21,047 nucleotides of DNA from a virus: IMG/VR virus record IMGVR_UViG_3300033273_000791, positions 1 through 21,047 of that record; one strand, 5' to 3'. The notes under the pieces were generated by a model. That model saw only the letters and a list, made by a program, of their open reading frames with translations, did not search any database and was not told where the DNA came from. Below, piece after piece: positions 4,136-17,072 of the stretch. The position numbers and the translations under genes were made by a program. The first letter of the stretch is position 1. Every line of letters begins with the position of its first letter.

Positions 4136-5399
4136 TATTAAAGAACAAATACAATATGATGGTCCAGAAAGAATGGATCCAGACATCGAAAGAAAAATAT
4201 CAGGTGGTGATACACCTTTATCTGACAATCCAGCATTTCCGGGTAAAGAGGAAGATGAATTTGATAATACTTTTGCTGAATTAATTGCTTCAAAAAGATT
4301 CAAAGATGTTGTTGAAAAAGTTAAACAGTATACTGGTATGCAAGAAGTTGTTGGTCAGAACGCTTTTATGCAACTTCAAATGATGTTAATGAATGCAGTT
4401 TCTAAAGTAAAAGAATTAGAATCAAATAATGAAGGTTACTTAGAACAATTAGCGGTAGATCTCGTTAAAAAGGAACTTGCAATTCCAGATGATGCATTTC
4501 AATATGACGTAGAGTTAATGTCAATGCCAGGTGGTATAGACACTTCGAAAATGCAAGGTCAACCCGAAGAGTTTGATGATGAAGAAATCCAACAACAGTT
4601 TGGTGTTGATTCTGACGAAGCTGAAGATGATTTAGAAAACTTCATGGCAGCATTCGAAAAATTTAATTTAGAAAAAGCAAAAAGGAGATTCATTAATTCT
4701 TTGATTCAAGGAGCGTCTAAAAAAGGACACTATATGTTTAATCTTGTTAGTGAAGAGCTTAATAATATTAACCCTGAATTACTTAACCTTTATGGTGTTT
4801 TGATGTCAATTAATGATTTACTTTACTGGATCATGCCAGATGCAATGACAATGGCCGCTGCTGAAGGTGGAGAAGGTGTTCAAGGTTCTGAAGAAATAGA
4901 TGAAACAACAGATCCTCCGACTATAAAAGCTAAAGGACTTTTCTTCCCAGTTTTAGTACACGAACTTATAAAAGGTGTTTACGAAGTTTTAGGTACACAA
5001 GGATTACCTGATGATCCAAGGTCTGCTGAAATGGTTATGGGTGCAGAAGATACTCTACCATACGAAGTGTGGGATTTGAGACTCGGCCCAGTAATTTGGG
5101 AAAAGTTTACCGAATCATATCCAGATAAACTTTTTGAAGACGATATGAGAGAGATCCAGAATTATCTATTCTCAAGATTTTCTTCATTAACTACCGATGA
5201 ATTTTTTGAGGTCGCACGTATGATATTATCTGGTTCTGACGAAGGAAAAAAGATAGTCTCATCAATGGTTGACGAAATTATTGAAGAATTAAAAGGTTAT
5301 GATTATGAAGATGCGATGGATCAATATTCTGATGACGATGATGATGACGATGATGGATTAGAAGGATTTTTAGGTGACTTAGGAATATCATTAACATAA
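4128..5399 (+). CDS. Conserved structural-type protein upstream of terminase
   Basis: A 423-residue acidic protein. Residues about 45-130 form a helical domain ('AELIASKRFKDVVEKVKQYTGMQEV...LMNAVSKVKELE'). A middle part, about 180-260, is helical with Met-rich segments. The C terminus ends in a run of Asp (SDDDDDDDDGLEG) and 'FLGDLGISLT'. No family name comes to mind. It is immediately upstream of, and overlaps by one base, the large terminase (TAATG), where T4 has the small terminase gp16; at 423 residues it is much longer than gp16 (164 aa), so I do not call it that. A head-assembly role is plausible. I use ATG 4128, which overlaps the previous stop by eight bases, not the TTG at 4101. Confidence 0.75.
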   Translation: MSNIKEQIQYDGPERMDPDIERKISGGDTPLSDNPAFPGKEEDEFDNTFAELIASKRFKDVVEKVKQYTGMQEVVGQNAFMQLQMMLMNAVSKVKELESNNEGYLEQLAVDLVKKELAIPDDAFQYDVELMSMPGGIDTSKMQGQPEEFDDEEIQQQFGVDSDEAEDDLENFMAAFEKFNLEKAKRRFINSLIQGASKKGHYMFNLVSEELNNINPELLNLYGVLMSINDLLYWIMPDAMTMAAAEGGEGVQGSEEIDETTDPPTIKAKGLFFPVLVHELIKGVYEVLGTQGLPDDPRSAEMVMGAEDTLPYEVWDLRLGPVIWEKFTESYPDKLFEDDMREIQNYLFSRFSSLTTDEFFEVARMILSGSDEGKKIVSSMVDEIIEELKGYDYEDAMDQYSDDDDDDDDGLEGFLGDLGISLT

Positions 5400-7168
5400 T
5401 GGGTTTAACAAAAGAGAAAGTTTTATTAGAATATGCTAAATGTGTAAAAGATACTGATTACGCACTTAGTACTTATCTACAGACATATGACAATACACAA
5501 AAAGGATATGTCCCATTAAAACTTTTTCCAGATCAAAAACATTTGATCGATGATTTTGAAGAGTATGAAGAAAATATAGCTCTAAAATATCGACAAGCTG
5601 GTGTCTCGACAGTTACTTCAGCTTGGGTATCAAAAAAACTGGTTTTTGCTAAAAAGAGTAAACCTGAAAAAATTCTTATTATTGCAAACAAACTTGATAC
5701 TGCGGTTGAAATGGCTAATAAGATTCGGGGGTTTGTAGATCAGTGGCCAGATTGGTTAGGAGTTAATTTTTCAAACGAAAAGAATTCACAAAGACATTTT
5801 AAATTAACAAACGGGTGTGAAGTAAAAGCGGTTGCAACATCAAAAGATGCTCTTAGGGGTTATACACCTACCACACTTATTTTTGATGAGGCTGCGTATA
5901 TCGAGGCTGATGATGATTTTTGGGCAGCTTGTATGGCCTCCCTCTCTACAGGAGGTAAAGTAATTGTGATTTCAACACCTAATGGATTCGATCCAATATA
6001 TTATCAGATTTATGATCAATCTTTAAAAGGTATGAATGATTTTAAAGTGACTGAAATGTTTTGGTACCGAGATCCAAGATATACATCAGATTTAAAATTA
6101 GTTAAAACAAAGGATATTGTTCACTACTTACTTAATAGAGAAGATTATAATGATAGTGAAATTGTTATTGATTATTCACACATAAAACCAAGAGATAGGG
6201 ATTTTGATGAAATTAAAACCCATTTTGAAAATGGGTATAAACCATTATCCTCTTGGTTTGAATCTATGGCTAAAAAATTAAAATTTGATCGTCGTAAAAT
6301 TTCACAAGAATTAGAATGTAATTTTTTGGGTTCTGGTGATAACGTAATACCTCCTGAAACTGTTGAGTTTCTAAAAAATAATTCTATTTGTGAACCAGAA
6401 AATAAATTTATGGGAGGTGCTCTTTGGCAATGGAAAGAGCCTGTCATTGGTCATAAATACATTATGGGTATTGATGTTTCTAGAGGTGATAGTGAGGACT
6501 TTACGACATTTTGTATAATTGATTTTGACGAGAGAGAACAAGTACTAGAATACCTAGGAAAAATCCCACCTGACGTTGCTGCTGAAGTTGCTTATAAATG
6601 GGCCACAATGTATTCAGCATTTATTGTTATTGATATTACTGGAGGTATGGGAGTATCAACATCTAGAAAATTACAAGAATTAGGATATAAAGATCTTTAT
6701 GTTGACGGAAAGGATATTTTTAATAAATGGAAATATGATCCTAAAATAAATGATAAAATACCTGGATTAAATTTTAATTCTAAAAGAGTACAAATAATAT
6801 CGGCCTTTGAAGAATCATTAAGACATAAATTTGAGGTTAGATCAATTAGGTTATTAAATGAGTTAAATACTTTCGTATATATTAACGGTAGACCTGACCA
6901 CATGAAAGGTCAACACGATGACTTGATTATGGCAATGGCTATGGCGATATATGTCGGTGAAAACTCATTTTCACAGTTGAATAAATTGACTGAACAAACA
7001 AAGGCAATGGTTGATAGTTGGTCGGTGAGAGAGAGTAATCAAAGTCAAAAAGTTGCCAATTTTAATCCTTCAATACCACACATCATGAATGGTCAACAAA
7101 ACAATCGTCAATCCACAAGACAAGATTATATGGATTATTCTTGGTTATTTGGTGGTAGATCTTCTTAA
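5399..7168 (+). CDS. Large terminase subunit (gp17-like)
   Basis: The DNA-packaging motor: an ATPase that pumps genome into the prohead plus a nuclease that cuts the concatemer. The 589 residues match T4 gp17 (610 aa) in size. ATPase motifs: P-loop-like 'KYRQAGVST' at 63-71, Walker B 'LIFDEA' at 160-165 with the catalytic Glu, and coupling motif 'STPNG' at 192-196. The RNase H-like nuclease has its acids at D359 ('GIDVSRGD'), D412 ('VIDITGGMG') and D507/D508 ('QHDDLIMAMA'). The P-loop is deviant: the usual GK(T/S) lysine is replaced by Val, and only K63/R65 at its start could serve. Its ATG overlaps the upstream stop by one base. The portal follows after 31 bases, whereas in T4 the sheath and tube genes lie between. 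Confidence 0.97.
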   Translation: MGLTKEKVLLEYAKCVKDTDYALSTYLQTYDNTQKGYVPLKLFPDQKHLIDDFEEYEENIALKYRQAGVSTVTSAWVSKKLVFAKKSKPEKILIIANKLDTAVEMANKIRGFVDQWPDWLGVNFSNEKNSQRHFKLTNGCEVKAVATSKDALRGYTPTTLIFDEAAYIEADDDFWAACMASLSTGGKVIVISTPNGFDPIYYQIYDQSLKGMNDFKVTEMFWYRDPRYTSDLKLVKTKDIVHYLLNREDYNDSEIVIDYSHIKPRDRDFDEIKTHFENGYKPLSSWFESMAKKLKFDRRKISQELECNFLGSGDNVIPPETVEFLKNNSICEPENKFMGGALWQWKEPVIGHKYIMGIDVSRGDSEDFTTFCIIDFDEREQVLEYLGKIPPDVAAEVAYKWATMYSAFIVIDITGGMGVSTSRKLQELGYKDLYVDGKDIFNKWKYDPKINDKIPGLNFNSKRVQIISAFEESLRHKFEVRSIRLLNELNTFVYINGRPDHMKGQHDDLIMAMAMAIYVGENSFSQLNKLTEQTKAMVDSWSVRESNQSQKVANFNPSIPHIMNGQQNNRQSTRQDYMDYSWLFGGRSS

Positions 7169-7171
7169 CTT

Positions 7172-7196
7172 ATTAATATAGTTTTTTATATTTATA
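7172..7196 (+). promoter_or_regulatory. ATTAATATAG plus TATTTATA before the portal gene
   Basis: ATTAATATAG at 7172-7181 and TATTTATA at 7189-7196 fill the short gap between terminase and portal, in the reverse order to the copies at 34-50. The motif ends only three bases before the ATG at 7200, so if it is a -10 element, transcripts from it would be almost leaderless. Confidence 0.45.
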
Positions 7197-7199
7197 GAC

Positions 7200-9041
7200 A
7201 TGGCAGAAAATAATTTTACAATTTGGCAGAGATTATCAAAGGTATTCGGACCGGATGCTACTCTTGACCAACAATCACCCACAATTAAATTTGACTCTAA
7301 GGAATTACTCAAAACTACAAACAAACAAGAGTTTGAGAGAGAAAAATTACAAGCCCAACAAACCTTTTATTTAGGTCAACAGTGGCAAAAAATAGAAAAT
7401 AACTTATATACTCAAGCGGTTTATTACGAACCAACAAGATTAGCCTCTTTTTATGATTATGAGTCTATGGAATATACTCCAGAAATTTCTGCAGCTTTGG
7501 ACATTTACTCTGAGGAATCAACTACAACTAATGAGGATGGGTTTATCTTACAAATTTATTCTGAAAGTAAAAGAATAAAATCAGTTCTTGCGGATTTGTT
7601 TAATAACAAACTTGATATTAATACAAATCTACCCATGTGGACAAGAAATACTTGTAAGTATGGTGATAACTTTGTATATCTAAAATTGGATCCAGAGAAA
7701 GGTGTAGTAGGGGCACAACAATTACCTAATATTGAGATTACTAGACAAGAAAGAGGTATGAAAATTAGTCCTGATCGTCATACATCAAATACTGAAAATG
7801 ATGCTTTGAAATTTCTATGGAAAAACAAAGATATGAACTTCAACAGTTGGGAAGTCGCACATTTCAGATTATTAGGTGATGATAGAAAACTTCCTTACGG
7901 TACTTCAATGCTAGAAAAGGCTAGAAGAATATGGAAACAATTAATTTTGTCTGAAGATGCGATGTTAATTTACCGAACATCTAGGGCACCTGAAAGAAGA
8001 GTATTTAAAGTATTTGTAGGTAACATGGATGATAAAGATGTCGAACCTTACATCCAAAGAGTTGCAAATAAATTTAAAAGAGATCAGGTTGCAGATCCAC
8101 AAAACGGTAATGTAGATTTAAGATATAATCAGATGGCTGTTGATCAGGATTACTTTATCCCTGTAAGAGATCCTAACGCTCCTAACCCTATAGATACTCT
8201 ACCAGGGGCACAAAATCTATCAGAAATTGCAGATATTGAGTATATACAGAAAAAACTATTAACCGCACTTAGAGTACCTAAAGCGTTTCTTGGTTTCGAA
8301 GAAGTTGTTGGAGATGGTAAAACATTGGCGTTACAAGACATTAGATTTGCAAGGACAATCAACAAGATTCAAAAATCTATGATACAAGAATTAAATAAGA
8401 TTGCTATTATACACTTGTATCTATTAGGTTTTGAGGATGAACTAACAAGCTTTACATTGTCATTAACTAACCCATCCACTCAAGCAGACCTACTCAAAGT
8501 TGAAAATTGGCAAACAAAAGTACAACTCTATAGAGATGCAGTTTCAGATCCAGGTAATGGTATACAGGCAGTATCAAGTTCGTGGGCTAAAAAGCATATT
8601 CTAGGATTTAGTGACGATGAAATAAAATTAGATATTCAGCAACAAAGAATTGAAAAGGCAGTTGCAGCTGAATTAGAAAAAACCCCAGAAGTTATTTCAA
8701 AAACAGGTTTATTTAGTAATATAGATAAACTGTATGGATCCAAATCCACTTCAGATTCTGGTGAGCAAGAAGGTGAAGTTTCAGAACCTTCAGATACTGG
8801 TTTTGGTGATATGGGGGGTGATATAGGTGGAGATATAGGGGGCGATATAGGGGGCGATATTCCAGATATAGGAGGGGATGATACTGGTGGTGAACCACCG
8901 GTAGAAACCTTTGTAAGAAATAAAGATTTGGATTTGATCGTTGAGGATAGTCTGTTAAATGGTATAGATTCAATTGACCTATCTAGAGGTTCAGAAGAGC
9001 TCAAAGAAATAGAAGAAAAGTTAAATAACTTATTATTGTAA
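7200..9041 (+). CDS. Portal protein (gp20-like)
   Basis: Portal vertex protein: it forms the ring through which DNA enters and leaves the head, docks the terminase and nucleates prohead assembly. Segments typical of T4 gp20 are present. 'YTPEISAALDIYSEE' lies near residues 91-105, 'YRTSRAPERRVFKVFVGNM' near 257-275 and 'DTLPGAQNLSEIADIEYIQKKL' near 331-352, followed by 'ALRVPKAFLGFE'. At 613 residues it is longer than gp20 (524 aa). The excess is mostly a C-terminal tail with a Gly-Asp-Ile-Gly repeat (about 535-556) and a final acidic helix. It follows terminase by 31 bases, with a promoter-like motif between, and lacks a Shine-Dalgarno. The tail may be a flexible tether inside the prohead, which is inference. 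Confidence 0.96.
   Translation: MAENNFTIWQRLSKVFGPDATLDQQSPTIKFDSKELLKTTNKQEFEREKLQAQQTFYLGQQWQKIENNLYTQAVYYEPTRLASFYDYESMEYTPEISAALDIYSEESTTTNEDGFILQIYSESKRIKSVLADLFNNKLDINTNLPMWTRNTCKYGDNFVYLKLDPEKGVVGAQQLPNIEITRQERGMKISPDRHTSNTENDALKFLWKNKDMNFNSWEVAHFRLLGDDRKLPYGTSMLEKARRIWKQLILSEDAMLIYRTSRAPERRVFKVFVGNMDDKDVEPYIQRVANKFKRDQVADPQNGNVDLRYNQMAVDQDYFIPVRDPNAPNPIDTLPGAQNLSEIADIEYIQKKLLTALRVPKAFLGFEEVVGDGKTLALQDIRFARTINKIQKSMIQELNKIAIIHLYLLGFEDELTSFTLSLTNPSTQADLLKVENWQTKVQLYRDAVSDPGNGIQAVSSSWAKKHILGFSDDEIKLDIQQQRIEKAVAAELEKTPEVISKTGLFSNIDKLYGSKSTSDSGEQEGEVSEPSDTGFGDMGGDIGGDIGGDIGGDIPDIGGDDTGGEPPVETFVRNKDLDLIVEDSLLNGIDSIDLSRGSEELKEIEEKLNNLLL
8805..8861 (+). repeat. 12-bp tandem repeat coding GDIG in the portal tail
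   Basis: Four full units of GGNGATAT(A/G)GGN (8805-8816, 8817-8828, 8829-8840, 8841-8852) plus a partial fifth, each encoding Gly-Asp-Ile/Met-Gly. Units differ only at wobble positions and ATA/ATG. The G-rich strand contrasts with the AT-rich surroundings and is prone to slippage. Confidence 0.9.
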
Positions 9042-9049
9042 TATTTATA
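9042..9049 (+). promoter_or_regulatory. Late-promoter-like motif TATTTATA
   Basis: TATTTATA lies immediately after the portal stop and 13 bases before the ATG at 9063, the same layout as at the other sites. The role is inferred from recurrence. Confidence 0.5.
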
Positions 9050-9062
9050 ACTAAAATAGATT

Positions 9063-9785
9063 ATGAATACTTTCGGACAACTTAAAACATATATAGAAAA
9101 TTCACTAATAGAATCTTACGGTAAAAAAGATTTTAAAAAACATTTTAAATTTTTCAAAAAGAATATTTTGGAATCTAAGGAACTGAGTGAAATAAGTTAT
9201 CTATACGATACCTTATCCAGTCCACAAAATATTGATAAAGAGATTGTTTCTGAGTTTTTAAATGAATGTATAGAAAATTTGAAAACTAAAATAAGTAGTA
9301 ACTCAGATAAAATAGATTCATTACTATCTGAGATTAGTAGTATTGAAAATAATTATGAAGTTATTGATAACGTAATCTATTCTATCGGTCCGGATTCTAT
9401 ACTAGAAAAAATAGAATCGAAAAACAAAATAAAGTCAGTACTAGTTGAAAAAGATATTACAAAAGTATATAATGAGAACTTAAGTATTCCAATCTCATCT
9501 ATGTCAAATATAGCGGCTAGAACTTTTGTAAAAAAGTACGATCATTTAAATGAATCGGATACTGAAACATTAAAAAAATATCTTACTTTATCAAAAGATA
9601 ATCTAGTAGAAGGATTCGAAGAAACTAAAGGTAAAGTTTTATCATCATTAAATGATCAATACAATAAAGCAAGTGACGATAATGAATTAAAAGAAAAAAT
9701 TACTGAAACGATTAATAAAATTGAGAATACTAAACCTAGTTTGTATAGCTTATATCAGTTAGAACAACTATCAAATAATCTGTAA
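9063..9785 (+). CDS. Helical protein between portal and protease, possible prohead core protein
   Basis: A 240-residue, Lys/Glu/Ser/Asn-rich, mostly helical protein without Cys or membrane segments. I do not recognise a family with certainty. Its place after the portal and before the protease is where T4 encodes the prohead core proteins gp67 and gp68, although those are only 80 and 141 residues. The N terminus (MNTFGQLKTYIENSLIESYG) recalls the capsid-targeting leader of T4 internal proteins (MKTYQEFIAEA), and contains LIE-S, which fits the prohead protease (L/I)xE rule. Core-protein status is therefore an inference from order and this leader. The last 15 bases overlap the end of the convergent bS21 gene. 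Confidence 0.72.
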   Translation: MNTFGQLKTYIENSLIESYGKKDFKKHFKFFKKNILESKELSEISYLYDTLSSPQNIDKEIVSEFLNECIENLKTKISSNSDKIDSLLSEISSIENNYEVIDNVIYSIGPDSILEKIESKNKIKSVLVEKDITKVYNENLSIPISSMSNIAARTFVKKYDHLNESDTETLKKYLTLSKDNLVEGFEETKGKVLSSLNDQYNKASDDNELKEKITETINKIENTKPSLYSLYQLEQLSNNL

Positions 9786-9959
9786 GTAAGTGTTCATATA
9801 AATCGCTTTCTTTTTCTGTCTTCTTTTGGTTACACTCTTTTTCTCGTAAAACATATTTTTTTTGATCTGTTCATTTTGTTTTAATTTTTGAACTTTATAC
9901 TTATACGTTTTAAGAGCTCTATCTATCCCGTCTTTTTTATTTACCTTTACTATAATCAT
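9771..9959 (-). CDS. rpsU: Ribosomal protein bS21, phage-encoded
   Basis: A 62-residue small-subunit ribosomal protein. The sequence MIIVKVNKKDGIDRALKTYK follows the Bacteroidota bS21 pattern (MIIVxVxxxxxIDRALKxYK), followed by 'FYEKKSVTKRRQKKKAIYM'. Basic residues cluster in the C-terminal half, as expected for rRNA binding. Tyr54 falls at the position where Bacteroidota bS21 has a conserved Tyr (KAAY); in that phylum bS21, with bS18 and bS6, is known to help bury the 3' end of 16S rRNA so that Shine-Dalgarno pairing is suppressed. Phage-borne bS21 genes are known and linked to late infection. It lies on the strand opposite its structural neighbours, overlaps the preceding gene tail-to-tail by 15 bases, and has its own TATTTATA motif 17 bases before the ATG. 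It likely replaces or competes with host bS21. Confidence 0.93.
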   Translation of the reverse strand: MIIVKVNKKDGIDRALKTYKYKVQKLKQNEQIKKNMFYEKKSVTKRRQKKKAIYMNTYLQII

Positions 9960-9969
9960 TTTATATGAG

Positions 9970-9986
9970 ACTATTTTATAAATAGT
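9970..9986 (-). promoter_or_regulatory. Late-promoter-like motif of bS21 within an inverted repeat
   Basis: Read on the minus strand, TATTTATA (9984-9977) precedes the bS21 start by 17 bases. It lies in a perfect inverted repeat ACTATTT-TAT-AAATAGT at 9970-9986, which could bind a dimeric regulator. This copy shows that the motif keeps its orientation to the gene when the gene is reversed. Confidence 0.5.
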
Positions 9987-9998
9987 TTATTTATTTTT

Positions 9999-10030
9999 TT
10001 TGACAATTGTAGTAATCAATGATATATTTT
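9999..10030 (+). promoter_or_regulatory. Candidate sigma promoter for the 147-aa gene
   Basis: TTGACA at 10000-10005 is followed after 17 bases by TATATT at 10023-10028, a near-perfect primary sigma promoter of the general type. The same bases fit the Bacteroidota consensus: TTTG at 9999-10002, 20 bases, then TATATTTT (TAnnTTTG with the last base off). It would give a leader of about 30 bases before the ATG at 10066. This is the only gene in the head block with such a promoter. Confidence 0.55.
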
Positions 10031-10065
10031 ACAAATATAAAATAAACTTATCATTATGATATAAT

Positions 10066-10509
10066 ATGAAAAAAGGTAAAACTAGTCGTTTAAATATTTT
10101 ACCAAAGGCTAAATGTTTTTATGGGACTGTTGACTCAAAAAATTTAAAATCTATATATATTGTTCTACAGTGTTGGGTGGAACCTCTAATAGAACTCGAT
10201 AATTGGGATCGAGTCATAGGAAATTTAGAACGACAAATAAAACACACAGTATTAGAATCTATTGATAAAATATATTTCAATAACAATACGATTGTAGATT
10301 TAGACTTAAGAAGTAGCGGTGTAATGTTAGGAAAACGTAGTTTCTTGAATCTTGAAATAACTCTATTTGTAAAAAAGGATATTGAATTTAAGTCACCAAT
10401 TTTAAAAGATAAGATTAAACAGATTGTAATTCCTATCTACAATTTCGATATATGCAAATCTAAATATTTTTTAATATACAAATCAAAATCCACTAAAATT
10501 ATCTCTTAA
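10066..10509 (+). CDS. Hypothetical protein, 147 aa
   Basis: I do not recognise this basic protein. It is mixed alpha/beta with strands such as 'SIYIVLQCWVEPL' and 'SFLNLEITLFVKKDI', two Cys-containing segments, and no membrane helix or signal. The beta-rich pattern and the phrase 'RSSGVMLGKRSFLNLEITLFV' suggest a compact folded domain. It stands alone between divergent bS21 and the protease, with a sigma-type promoter upstream (TTGACA-17-TATATT), whereas its neighbours have the TATTTATA motif, so it may be made earlier than they are. ATG 10066 is the first start after the promoter. Confidence 0.75.
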   Translation: MKKGKTSRLNILPKAKCFYGTVDSKNLKSIYIVLQCWVEPLIELDNWDRVIGNLERQIKHTVLESIDKIYFNNNTIVDLDLRSSGVMLGKRSFLNLEITLFVKKDIEFKSPILKDKIKQIVIPIYNFDICKSKYFLIYKSKSTKIIS

Positions 10510-10530: not shown

Positions 10531-10544
10531 AAAAAAGTTTGAAA

Positions 10545-11270
10545 ATGAAAATTTTAGGACCTAATGACACAGGTAAAGGTATTCTTATTGAATATGATGC
10601 AGGTAACATATCACCTGAAGACAGTAGGAATGCGGAAATCATAAAAGAATCGTATGGTCAATTAGATCATTCTAGACCATTTGAATTTTACGCAACACTA
10701 CAAAAATTTGATACTCCAAATAGGAATGGTAGAATATATCCTGAAAAAATATTACGTAGAGAAGTTGAAAAATATAAGACTAATATAAATAAAGGATTAT
10801 CAATCTCTGAATTAAATCACCCAGAATCATCACTTATAGATTTAGATAGAGTATCACATTTAATTACTGACGTATGGTGGGAAGGGAATACTCTAATGGG
10901 TAAAATAAAATTATTGACATCACCAGGTTTTCACGAAAGAGGTGTTGTTTCATGTCCCGGTGATCAAGCCGCTAATTTAATGAGACAAGGTGTTACAATG
11001 GGTGTTTCATCTAGAGGTGTAGGTTCATTGGTTAACAAAGGTGAAAAAAACGAAGTTCAAGATGATTTTGAACTTATATGTTTTGACCTCGTATCAGCAC
11101 CTTCTACACCGGGGGCTTATTTGTTCTTGAATGCTGATGACAGAATGAAGTATGATGAAAAACTTGATGAAGAAACTAAACAAGAAAATAAAGATGTTGA
11201 TAGTGATTCAGAATATTTTAATCGTTCTCTTGATTTAATGAGTAGACTTTCCGATTATTTAGATAAATAA
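10545..11270 (+). CDS. Prohead maturation protease (gp21-like)
   Basis: Serine protease that digests the scaffold and trims head proteins during prohead maturation. The 241 residues (T4 gp21 has 212) keep the herpesvirus-assemblin-like fold signatures. The catalytic His is in 'ELNHPES' (H92), the Ser in 'GVSSRGVGS' (S155 or S156), and 'FDLVSAPSTPGAY' (from about F180) probably gives the third triad member and the substrate strand. The early segment 'FDTPNRNGRIYPEKIL' is typical of phage proteases of this clan. It precedes scaffold and capsid in the T4 order 21-22-23. I use ATG 10545 and not the in-frame TTG at 10539; the TATTTATT motif supports transcription starting just upstream. Confidence 0.95.
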   Translation: MKILGPNDTGKGILIEYDAGNISPEDSRNAEIIKESYGQLDHSRPFEFYATLQKFDTPNRNGRIYPEKILRREVEKYKTNINKGLSISELNHPESSLIDLDRVSHLITDVWWEGNTLMGKIKLLTSPGFHERGVVSCPGDQAANLMRQGVTMGVSSRGVGSLVNKGEKNEVQDDFELICFDLVSAPSTPGAYLFLNADDRMKYDEKLDEETKQENKDVDSDSEYFNRSLDLMSRLSDYLDK

Positions 11271-13066: not shown

Positions 13067-14827
13067 ATGGGAGCATTATTAGAATCAGGTCTTGTTGGTA
13101 ACATTGGTCTTAAGCATCTTAAAGTTATCAAGGAAGATACAGTAAACAAGTGGGACAAATTAGGGTTCCTCGACGGTCTTAAAGGACATTTAAAAGAGAA
13201 CATGGCACAACTTTATGAAAACCAGGCTTCTCACCTAATTAACGAAGCTGCTACAGCTGATAGTGGCGGTTCTTTCGAAACAGTTGTTTTCCCAATCATC
13301 AGAAGAGTTTTCTCTAAGTTATTGGCTAACGATATCGTTTCTGTACAAGCTATGAACCTACCGATTGGTAAGTTGTTCTACTTCGTACCTAAAATTCAGA
13401 GTAGAGATACTAATGGATTACACGTTCCTCCATTCGGAGCACCAGGTGGACCAACTACTACATTCTCAGGATACAATGAAAGTGACAAGAATCTATATGA
13501 TAGATTTTATGAAGGTTCTGTTCCAGGTACACAGAGTGAAGGGGTTGATCCAGAAGGTTTATTCGATTACTCGAAAGGTAGATACAGTGCAATGAGTATA
13601 AATGCAATTGTTTTAACTGGTGATCCAGGTAGCTTTACAGATGTGACTTACGCTGCGTTTACTGCAGGTACACCAAACCGTAGATCTGCTTATATCGCAA
13701 TTTCTGGTTTCAGTGAAGTCGGTGCAGGTAGAATGATTGGACCAAGCGGTAATGAGATGGATACGGAAGAATTCCTTTCATATTTGAATGTTAAAGTAGG
13801 AACTACTGCTTATCCTTTCAATGTATTAACACAAAAGTATGGTAAGGGTATTGTGGAATATGGATCTACACAGACGACAACCTTCCCAGATCAAAACGGA
13901 GGAAGATATCAAAGAATCTGTGATGAAAATGGTGTCATGTATTTGGTAGTTGATTTGAAAACTCCAACAAACGATCCAACCACACTTGATGGTTATACAG
14001 GTACTACATGTGGTGAACCTTTCAGTACAAATGAATTCGTAGTAACTTACAGAGTTTATGAAAACTTAGAATTCGAAGATAGAATTGGTGAGGTTTCATT
14101 TGATCTAGAAGCTGTAACCGTAACAGCTATCGAAAGAAAACTAAGAGCACAATGGTCTCCAGAATTAGCACAAGACGTTTCTGCATTCCACAACATTGAC
14201 GCTGAAGCTGAATTGACAGCTTTATTGTCTGAACAAGTGGCAGCGGAAATTGACCGTGAAATTCTAAGAGACTTGAGAAAAGGTGCAGCTTGGAAACTAA
14301 GATGGGATTATGATGGATGGAGAAGATTGAACGTAACTTCTACAGCTTACAACCAGAAGGACTGGAACCAAACATTGATCACTGCGATCAACCAGATTTC
14401 AGCTCAAATCCACAAATCAACTTTGAGAGGTGGTGCTAACTGGGTAGTTTGCTCTTCTGAGGTTTCTGCAATCTTTGACGATCTAGAGTACTTCCACGTT
14501 TCAAACGCGGCTCCTGATCAGGATAACTATAACATGGGTATTGAAAGAGTTGGTACTCTTTCTGGAAGATACCAGGTATACCGTGACCCATACTTCCCAC
14601 CAAACATAGTATTGTTAGGTCACAAGGGTAATTCAATGTTGGATACTGGATATGTATACGCACCATACGTACCACTCCAGTTAACACCAACTATGTACAA
14701 CCCATTCAACTTCACACCAATTAAGGGTATCATGACAAGATACGCTAAGAAGATGGTTAACAACAGATTCTATGGTGTAATCCAAGTTGATGGTGTTAGA
14801 ACATTCGACCTCAACTCTTTAAGATAA
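13067..14827 (+). CDS. Major capsid protein (gp23-like)
   Basis: The shell protein of the head. The 586 residues (T4 gp23 has 521) keep HK97-fold, gp23-type segments: 'LANDIVSVQAMNLPIGKLFY' near 90-108, 'RAQWSPELAQDVSAFHNIDAEAELTALL' near 361-388, 'WVVCSSEVSAIFDDL' near 461-475, and 'LDTGYVYAPYVPLQLTP' with 'GIMTRYAKKMVNNRFYG' near the end. The N-terminal 60 residues are helical and charged and end HLINE-AATADSGG. The cut after E60 fits the (L/I)xE rule and the 65-residue propeptide of gp23. Residues about 120-340 contain beta-rich material probably including an insertion domain. Codons favour AAC, TTC and TAC over AAT, TTT and TAT, unlike neighbours, as expected for the most abundant virion protein. 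Confidence 0.97.
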   Translation: MGALLESGLVGNIGLKHLKVIKEDTVNKWDKLGFLDGLKGHLKENMAQLYENQASHLINEAATADSGGSFETVVFPIIRRVFSKLLANDIVSVQAMNLPIGKLFYFVPKIQSRDTNGLHVPPFGAPGGPTTTFSGYNESDKNLYDRFYEGSVPGTQSEGVDPEGLFDYSKGRYSAMSINAIVLTGDPGSFTDVTYAAFTAGTPNRRSAYIAISGFSEVGAGRMIGPSGNEMDTEEFLSYLNVKVGTTAYPFNVLTQKYGKGIVEYGSTQTTTFPDQNGGRYQRICDENGVMYLVVDLKTPTNDPTTLDGYTGTTCGEPFSTNEFVVTYRVYENLEFEDRIGEVSFDLEAVTVTAIERKLRAQWSPELAQDVSAFHNIDAEAELTALLSEQVAAEIDREILRDLRKGAAWKLRWDYDGWRRLNVTSTAYNQKDWNQTLITAINQISAQIHKSTLRGGANWVVCSSEVSAIFDDLEYFHVSNAAPDQDNYNMGIERVGTLSGRYQVYRDPYFPPNIVLLGHKGNSMLDTGYVYAPYVPLQLTPTMYNPFNFTPIKGIMTRYAKKMVNNRFYGVIQVDGVRTFDLNSLR

Positions 14828-16519: not shown

Positions 16520-16831
16520 TTACTTCTTTTTTCCCCACTTTTTTCCTTTTCCTTTTGTGGAACATGCCGAAGGGGTCGGTCGACATGAAGGGTATTTGGC
16601 TCTCTTTTCACCCTTTTGTCTTCCACATGGTTTACACTTTTTTCTTCCAGTTTTAGAATCCTTTCTACAAGTATTACAATCTACCCAACCACTACTCTTA
16701 CCTTTTCCTCCTTGTCTACTAAACCAACCATGTAAACCACTTTTTTTCTCTTTGGAGTAATCGGTTTTTTCATCGATTATTGTCTTAATCAACTTAACTA
16801 ATTCCTCTTCTGTTAAACGTAACTTTTTCAT
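16520..16831 (-). CDS. Cys-rich small protein, DUF5872-like (paralogue 2)
   Basis: A 103-residue basic protein. Residues 1-22 (MKKLRLTEEELVKLIKTIID) form a predicted amphipathic helix shared with the gene upstream. Residues about 31-90 are 'GLHGWFSRQGGKGKSSGWVDCNTC...CKPCGRQKGEKRAKYPSCRPT', with Cys at 52, 55, 66, 69, 83 and 90: two CxxC pairs, suited to a zinc site. The 'GL-x-x-WF-x-R ... GWVDC ... CGR ... YP-x-CRPT' layout recalls a small domain spread through phages and large DNA viruses (DUF5872-like, by memory). The tail is Lys/Gly-rich. I use ATG 16831, not an in-frame start at 16933 that would lie inside the upstream gene: only 16831 gives the N terminus that matches its paralogue, four bases after that gene's stop. 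Confidence 0.8.
   Translation of the reverse strand: MKKLRLTEEELVKLIKTIIDEKTDYSKEKKSGLHGWFSRQGGKGKSSGWVDCNTCRKDSKTGRKKCKPCGRQKGEKRAKYPSCRPTPSACSTKGKGKKWGKKK
16788..16831 (-). repeat. Duplicated N-terminal coding module, copy 2
   Basis: These 44 bases match 17029-17072 at about 36 positions, and the first 20 bases of the two reading frames at 19 of 20. Both code for MKKLRLTE(E/N)EL-type helices at the start of adjacent genes whose bodies differ, so the module seems to have been copied and fused to different Cys-rich domains. Confidence 0.82.
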
Positions 16832-16835
16832 TACA

Positions 16836-17072
16836 TCAACATTTTTTTCCTTTCCAGATTTTACCTTGTCTACATTTAACCATAGCACCACTTTTATATG
16901 CTGAAGTTTCAGGACCATAAGATTGATCCGCACATCTGTGACACCTATCTTTCTTTTTCTCTTTTTCAGTCACTTCTCTTTTTTCTTTTGTTTCTGAATC
17001 AGTATATTTTTCTTTAATGACTTTTTGAATTATCTCTACTAATTCATTTTCGGTTAAACGTAATTTTTTCAT
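16836..17072 (-). CDS. Cys-rich small protein (paralogue 1)
   Basis: A 78-residue protein: helix MKKLRLTENELVEIIQKVIK (residues 1-20), a very charged linker (about 21-42), then 'DRCHRCADQSYGPETSAYKSG' and 'AMVKCRQGKIWKGKKC', with Cys at 44, 47, 67 and 78 as a likely zinc site. The 'SAYKSGAMVKCR' segment recalls a short domain frequent in phages ('SAYASGALVKCR'), function unknown to me. It is 11 bases downstream of the 503-aa virion gene and four bases upstream of its paralogue, so the three are likely co-transcribed and these small proteins may ride in the virion. Targeting by the common N-terminal helix is inference. Confidence 0.8.
   Translation of the reverse strand: MKKLRLTENELVEIIQKVIKEKYTDSETKEKREVTEKEKKKDRCHRCADQSYGPETSAYKSGAMVKCRQGKIWKGKKC
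17029..17072 (-). repeat. Duplicated N-terminal coding module, copy 1
   Basis: Partner of 16788-16831; codes for the first 14 or so residues of the 78-aa protein. The near identity of the first 20 bases argues for duplication and against convergence. Confidence 0.82.

Follow-up and report, generated by a model that had tools for sequence, protein, structure and literature searches.

A reverse-strand bS21 gene without a Shine-Dalgarno sequence in the head-gene block of a T4-like Bacteroidota phage

Results

A bS21 gene lies antisense within the head-gene block

The window, by which we mean the whole IMG/VR virus record analysed (21,047 bases), carries a T4-like head block in which a short reverse-strand gene, coding for ribosomal protein bS21, sits between the portal and prohead protease genes. 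The features at the locus are as follows.

5399–7168, + strand: terminase large subunit, TerL (PF03237, phrog_2)
7200–9041, + strand: portal protein, gp20-like (PF07230, E 3.4e-78)
9063–9785, + strand: orf240, convergent neighbour of bS21; the two 3' ends overlap by 15 nt
9771–9959, − strand: bS21 gene of the phage, an intact ATG-to-stop frame of 62 aa (PF01165, TIGR00030, PDB 9i5v and 7jil, tree)
9960–9989, − strand: bS21 translation initiation region without a Shine-Dalgarno (SD) sequence (pairing energy +0.8 kcal/mol)
9977–9984, − strand: TATTTATA, late-promoter-like element 18–25 nt before the bS21 ATG, of a type enriched upstream of genes on the coding strand
9998–10035, + strand: TTTTGACAA box with TATATTTT ~20 nt further on, likely a promoter of CN147 and not of bS21
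10066–10509, + strand: CN147, divergent neighbour of bS21 (synteny)
10539–11270, + strand: prohead protease, gp21-like (PF03420, E 5.9e-24)
13067–14827, + strand: major capsid protein, MCP, gp23-like (PF07068, E 3e-74)

TerL, portal, orf240, CN147, protease, scaffold and MCP all lie on the strand opposite to bS21. CN147 has no Pfam or PHROG match, and no tRNA or Rfam family was found within the 21,047-base window. Two adjacent small basic ORFs at 16520–17072 (− strand) have a common N-terminal motif, MKKLRLTExELVxxI; similar starts occur in other structural-region ORFs and possibly represent a common sorting or cleavage leader.

The first-pass annotation had described the ORF at 9771–9959 as a phage-encoded bS21 with a Bacteroidota-type N terminus and a retained Tyr54, and had proposed an HMM search as a check. 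The ORF matched PF01165 (Ribosomal_S21) at 38.6 bits (E 9e-10, profile positions 2–52 of 55; curated cut-off 27 bits), TIGR00030 (S21p) at 36.2 bits (cut-off 28.95 bits) and PHROG 21469, 'ribosomal protein S21', with an E-value of 3.8e-6. Its top PDB sequence matches were the bS21 chains 9i5v and 7jil (F. johnsoniae); these alignments are gapless from residue 1 and place Tyr54 on Tyr54. An AlphaFold2 model (mean pLDDT 92) has helices at residues 11–36 and 41–61, the two-helix fold expected of bS21; when this model was used in a PDB fold search, bS21 chains were the sole matches, with the weak E-values (0.13–0.19) of a very small protein. By sequence, the ORF is a bS21 of Bacteroidota type, and all three parts of the earlier description hold.

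The gene is conserved and under purifying selection, and its viral relatives form one clade

Related viral contigs were fetched with a bS21 query (80 contigs) and with TerL (80 contigs), the two sets partly overlapping. In 79 of the 80 bS21-fetched IMG/VR contigs the order portal, orf240, bS21 (reverse), CN147, protease, orf71, scaffold and MCP recurs within contig reach, in agreement with the antisense placement inside the head block first noted for the window. Among the TerL-fetched contigs bS21, where present, is at the same place and on the same strand. The exception is L003, in which a bS21 of the same clade (9238–9426, + strand) is co-directional with, and directly 3' of, another ORF, with no head genes nearby.

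A tree of Bacteroidota and phage bS21 proteins had also been proposed as a check. In it, 55 distinct viral bS21 proteins form one clade (support 100/96) that adjoins Flavobacteriia-type bS21 and three divergent Bacteroidota sequences (support 99/91), the whole resting on 64 columns, with weak inner forks. The window protein falls within the viral clade, where its partners are L005, L002 and L168, and it shares no more than 74% identity with any fetched sequence. Sister to the viral clade are L307, L315 and L302, the bS21 proteins of Bacteroidota genomes G133, G068 and G079; bS21 is present in three copies in G133 and in two in several other genomes.

Compared with its nearest relatives (L005, L002 and L168), the window gene has a dN/dS of about 0.05–0.1, with synonymous change in these pairs near saturation; the closer pair L002/L168 gave 0.09. 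A value of 0.78 for L012/L013 was rejected as a register artefact of a residue inserted in L013. A chance ORF at 9771–9959 is ruled out by the HMM scores, by the recurrence of gene, strand and site across contigs and by the dN/dS of 0.05–0.1. We conclude that the phage bS21 is real, conserved and selected and, judging by its place in the tree, derived from a Flavobacteriia-type bS21. Tyr54 is present in every aligned viral bS21 (an invariant column), which argues that burial of the anti-Shine-Dalgarno is kept throughout the clade. Three apparent alanines at position 54 were an artefact of pattern matching (as in I-A-K-A-K-Y), the sequences all having A-x-Y there.

Several close relatives are without bS21, and the gene is therefore dispensable to the lifestyle. 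No bS21 match was found in the 309-kb record behind L205 or in the records behind L244, L245, L251, L253, L258 and L208, and Flavobacterium phage immuto, the closest relative in culture, carries no annotated bS21 in the corresponding slot. A profile scan of the genome contigs with the viral bS21 alignment found no bacterial relative, although a F. johnsoniae query did find matches, and a search of an annotated phage collection for bS21 gave weak matches alone, in uncultured huge phages.

bS21 and most head genes have a common upstream motif

The bS21 gene had been credited with a late-like motif of its own, and this is borne out by TATTTATA at 9984–9977 on the reverse strand. The motif reads as the reverse complement of the T4 late element, TATAAATA. 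Over 776 predicted genes from 43 loci, the 50-nt stretches preceding gene starts hold it at 3.99 per kb on the coding strand and at 0.82 per kb in reverse, and gene bodies at 0.027 per kb; the shorter TATTTAT is most frequent 25 to 11 nt before starts. When the distinct upstream sequences of each family were counted, which come from related genomes and are not independent, TATTT[A/G]T was found upstream of portal (37/44), orf240 (43/46), protease (45/45), scaffold (33/33) and bS21 (39/46), and was rare upstream of TerL (5/46), MCP (2/32) and CN147 (1/45). From these counts we infer that coding-strand TATTT[A/G]T is a candidate late-promoter motif of this Bacteroidota T4-like phage clade. In the window itself, all four + strand copies of TATTTATA (34–41, 1514–1521, 7189–7196 and 9042–9049) stand shortly before + strand gene starts, a strand-specific, late-promoter-like arrangement.

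Since the motif is common to bS21 and most head genes, with copies before portal, orf240, protease and scaffold, the further suggestion that bS21 timing could be set apart from that of the structural genes is unsupported; it is also opposed by the published late co-expression of phage bS21 with structural genes (PMC9723584). bS21 probably gives a late transcript from a promoter of the kind that serves the adjacent head genes.

The other side of the intergenic gap appears to belong to CN147. TTTGAC and TATATTTT point towards CN147 and are conserved in relatives. The reverse complement of TTTGAC, GTCAAA, occurs upstream of 41 of 47 bS21 genes, and we considered it as a bS21 element; this was ruled out, since the TTTGAC box also stands before CN147 in close relatives without bS21 (L176, L205, L206, L212 and L214) and fits a CN147-directed promoter. 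Because CN147 and its box persist in these relatives, CN147 is not strictly tied to bS21, and its candidacy as a strict bS21 partner is likewise unsupported. In L205, L206, L212 and L214 the bS21 slot is taken by a hairpin that, with its T run, resembles a terminator; a retained CN147 and box beside such a hairpin suggests a sister lineage that has lost, or otherwise lacks, bS21.

Phage bS21 lacks the extended Shine-Dalgarno of host rpsU

Host rpsU, which codes for bS21, is translated best by bS21-free ribosomes, whereas SD-less messages are translated better with bS21; rpsU is thereby autoregulated, with its extended SD as the basis (McNutt et al. 2023, PMC9976891). We computed SD pairing energies against an assumed 16S tail, AUCACCUCCUUUCU, and took values below -13 kcal/mol to denote an extended SD. 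All 80 host rpsU genes sampled, which are of Flavobacterium type and may not include that of the window contig's host, have one: none pairs more weakly than -17.5 kcal/mol, and the median is -19.8. In a wider Bacteroidota sample in which some start sites are uncertain, 26 of 52 rpsU genes fell below -13 kcal/mol. By contrast, the window bS21 gene, at +0.8 kcal/mol, has no extended SD, and the median over viral bS21 genes is -1.1 kcal/mol, compared with -1.2 for shuffled sequence. L175 is the sole viral bS21 in the set with an SD-like sequence upstream (AAAGGAGA, -9.5 kcal/mol). We found no statement of this contrast between host rpsU and phage bS21 in the literature searched, with preprints and most subscription papers lying outside the search, and its novelty is provisional.

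Discussion

We favour, as fairly probable, the reading that the gene supplies a functional, late bS21 to 30S subunits, that this protein keeps the anti-SD buried and stands outside the host loop, and that it may hold host rpsU down. We infer that phage bS21 is incorporated into 30S subunits, where it would replace or top up host bS21. Since Tyr54 is kept, the 16S 3' tail most likely stays buried, and a buried anti-SD would suit SD-less mRNAs, to which nearly all phage messages belong. Because the phage gene, unlike host rpsU, has no extended SD, its translation would be independent of bS21-free ribosomes and would escape the host autoregulatory loop. Phage bS21 filling the ribosomes would in turn be expected to hold host rpsU down.

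That the host feedback acts as an outright switch, with an SD-less, Tyr54-bearing bS21 filling the ribosomes late, shutting rpsU and converting the pool, is a tentative proposal that we regard as unlikely. If true, no dedicated protease or inhibitor would be needed to turn the ribosome pool over to phage bS21. Among ribosomal proteins, bS21 is the one that phages carry most often, and the pairing of an SD-bearing host rpsU with an SD-less phage bS21 yields a concrete prediction that is testable in F. johnsoniae, for which rpsU reporters and bS21 mutants are available.

Chen et al. and Mizuno et al. have put forward a specialised-ribosome model, in which differences between phage and host bS21 in helix 1, the part facing the mRNA, would lead to phage mRNAs being chosen by some non-SD feature. 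The phage-specific K-Q at positions 27–28, where Flavobacterium has G-T, fits such a model, as does the helix 1 divergence reported by Chen et al. (PMC9723584). However, that divergence could reflect drift or adaptation to assembly, and no selectable phage mRNA feature was found, the window genes being mostly SD-less just as host genes are. We consider this model doubtful, on a par with the feedback switch.

Improbable to a greater degree is host shut-off, in which phage bS21 would poison or slow host initiation instead of aiding phage translation. In vitro, E. coli ribosomes carrying the bS21 of a Pelagibacter phage made ~5% of the normal amount of protein (PMC6375957), which counts against our favoured reading, since such a protein may inhibit translation instead of supporting it. 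That pairing crosses bacterial classes, however, and bS21 here seems to be late, by its motif and by published transcription (PMC9723584), at a time when the same ribosomes must make phage proteins. That the antisense gene mainly regulates orf240 through convergent transcription, its protein being secondary, is extremely improbable: the 3' overlap seen in the window is 4–18 nt in many relatives, but other relatives have none, and the strong purifying selection on the protein largely refutes the idea.

Three known systems invite comparison. Pelagibacter phage HTVC008M, like the window, has a phage-borne bS21 in a myovirus, and this protein enters E. coli ribosomes (Mizuno et al. 2019, PMC6375957); it is, however, of alphaproteobacterial origin, and the ribosome of its host lacks the Bacteroidia anti-SD pocket. 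The host bS21 of F. johnsoniae (7JIL) agrees with the phage protein in length, register, Tyr54 and Bacteroidota-type N terminus at ~37% identity, but autoregulation acts on its rpsU gene, which bears an extended SD, whereas the phage gene has no SD. The closest parallel is the set of Bacteroidetes phages, clades a–e, of Chen et al. 2022 (PMC9723584), in which a reverse-strand bS21 with an aromatic position 54 lies in the head block, diverges in helix 1 and, in metatranscriptomes, is transcribed late with structural genes; McNutt et al. 2023 (PMC9976891) also discuss Bacteroidetes bS21 phages. In common with the window, these are low-GC T4-like myoviruses with a Bacteroidetes-type bS21 between hypothetical genes in a TerL–portal–protease–MCP block. 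CN147 was found here also without bS21, and its equivalence to the bS21_CN of Chen et al. is not certain. The arrangement was thus published in 2022, and the window adds one more case to a phenomenon already described. No promoter motif, autoregulation or SD contrast is mentioned by Chen et al., and what the present sequence comparisons add is the motif that bS21 has in common with head genes and the missing SD.
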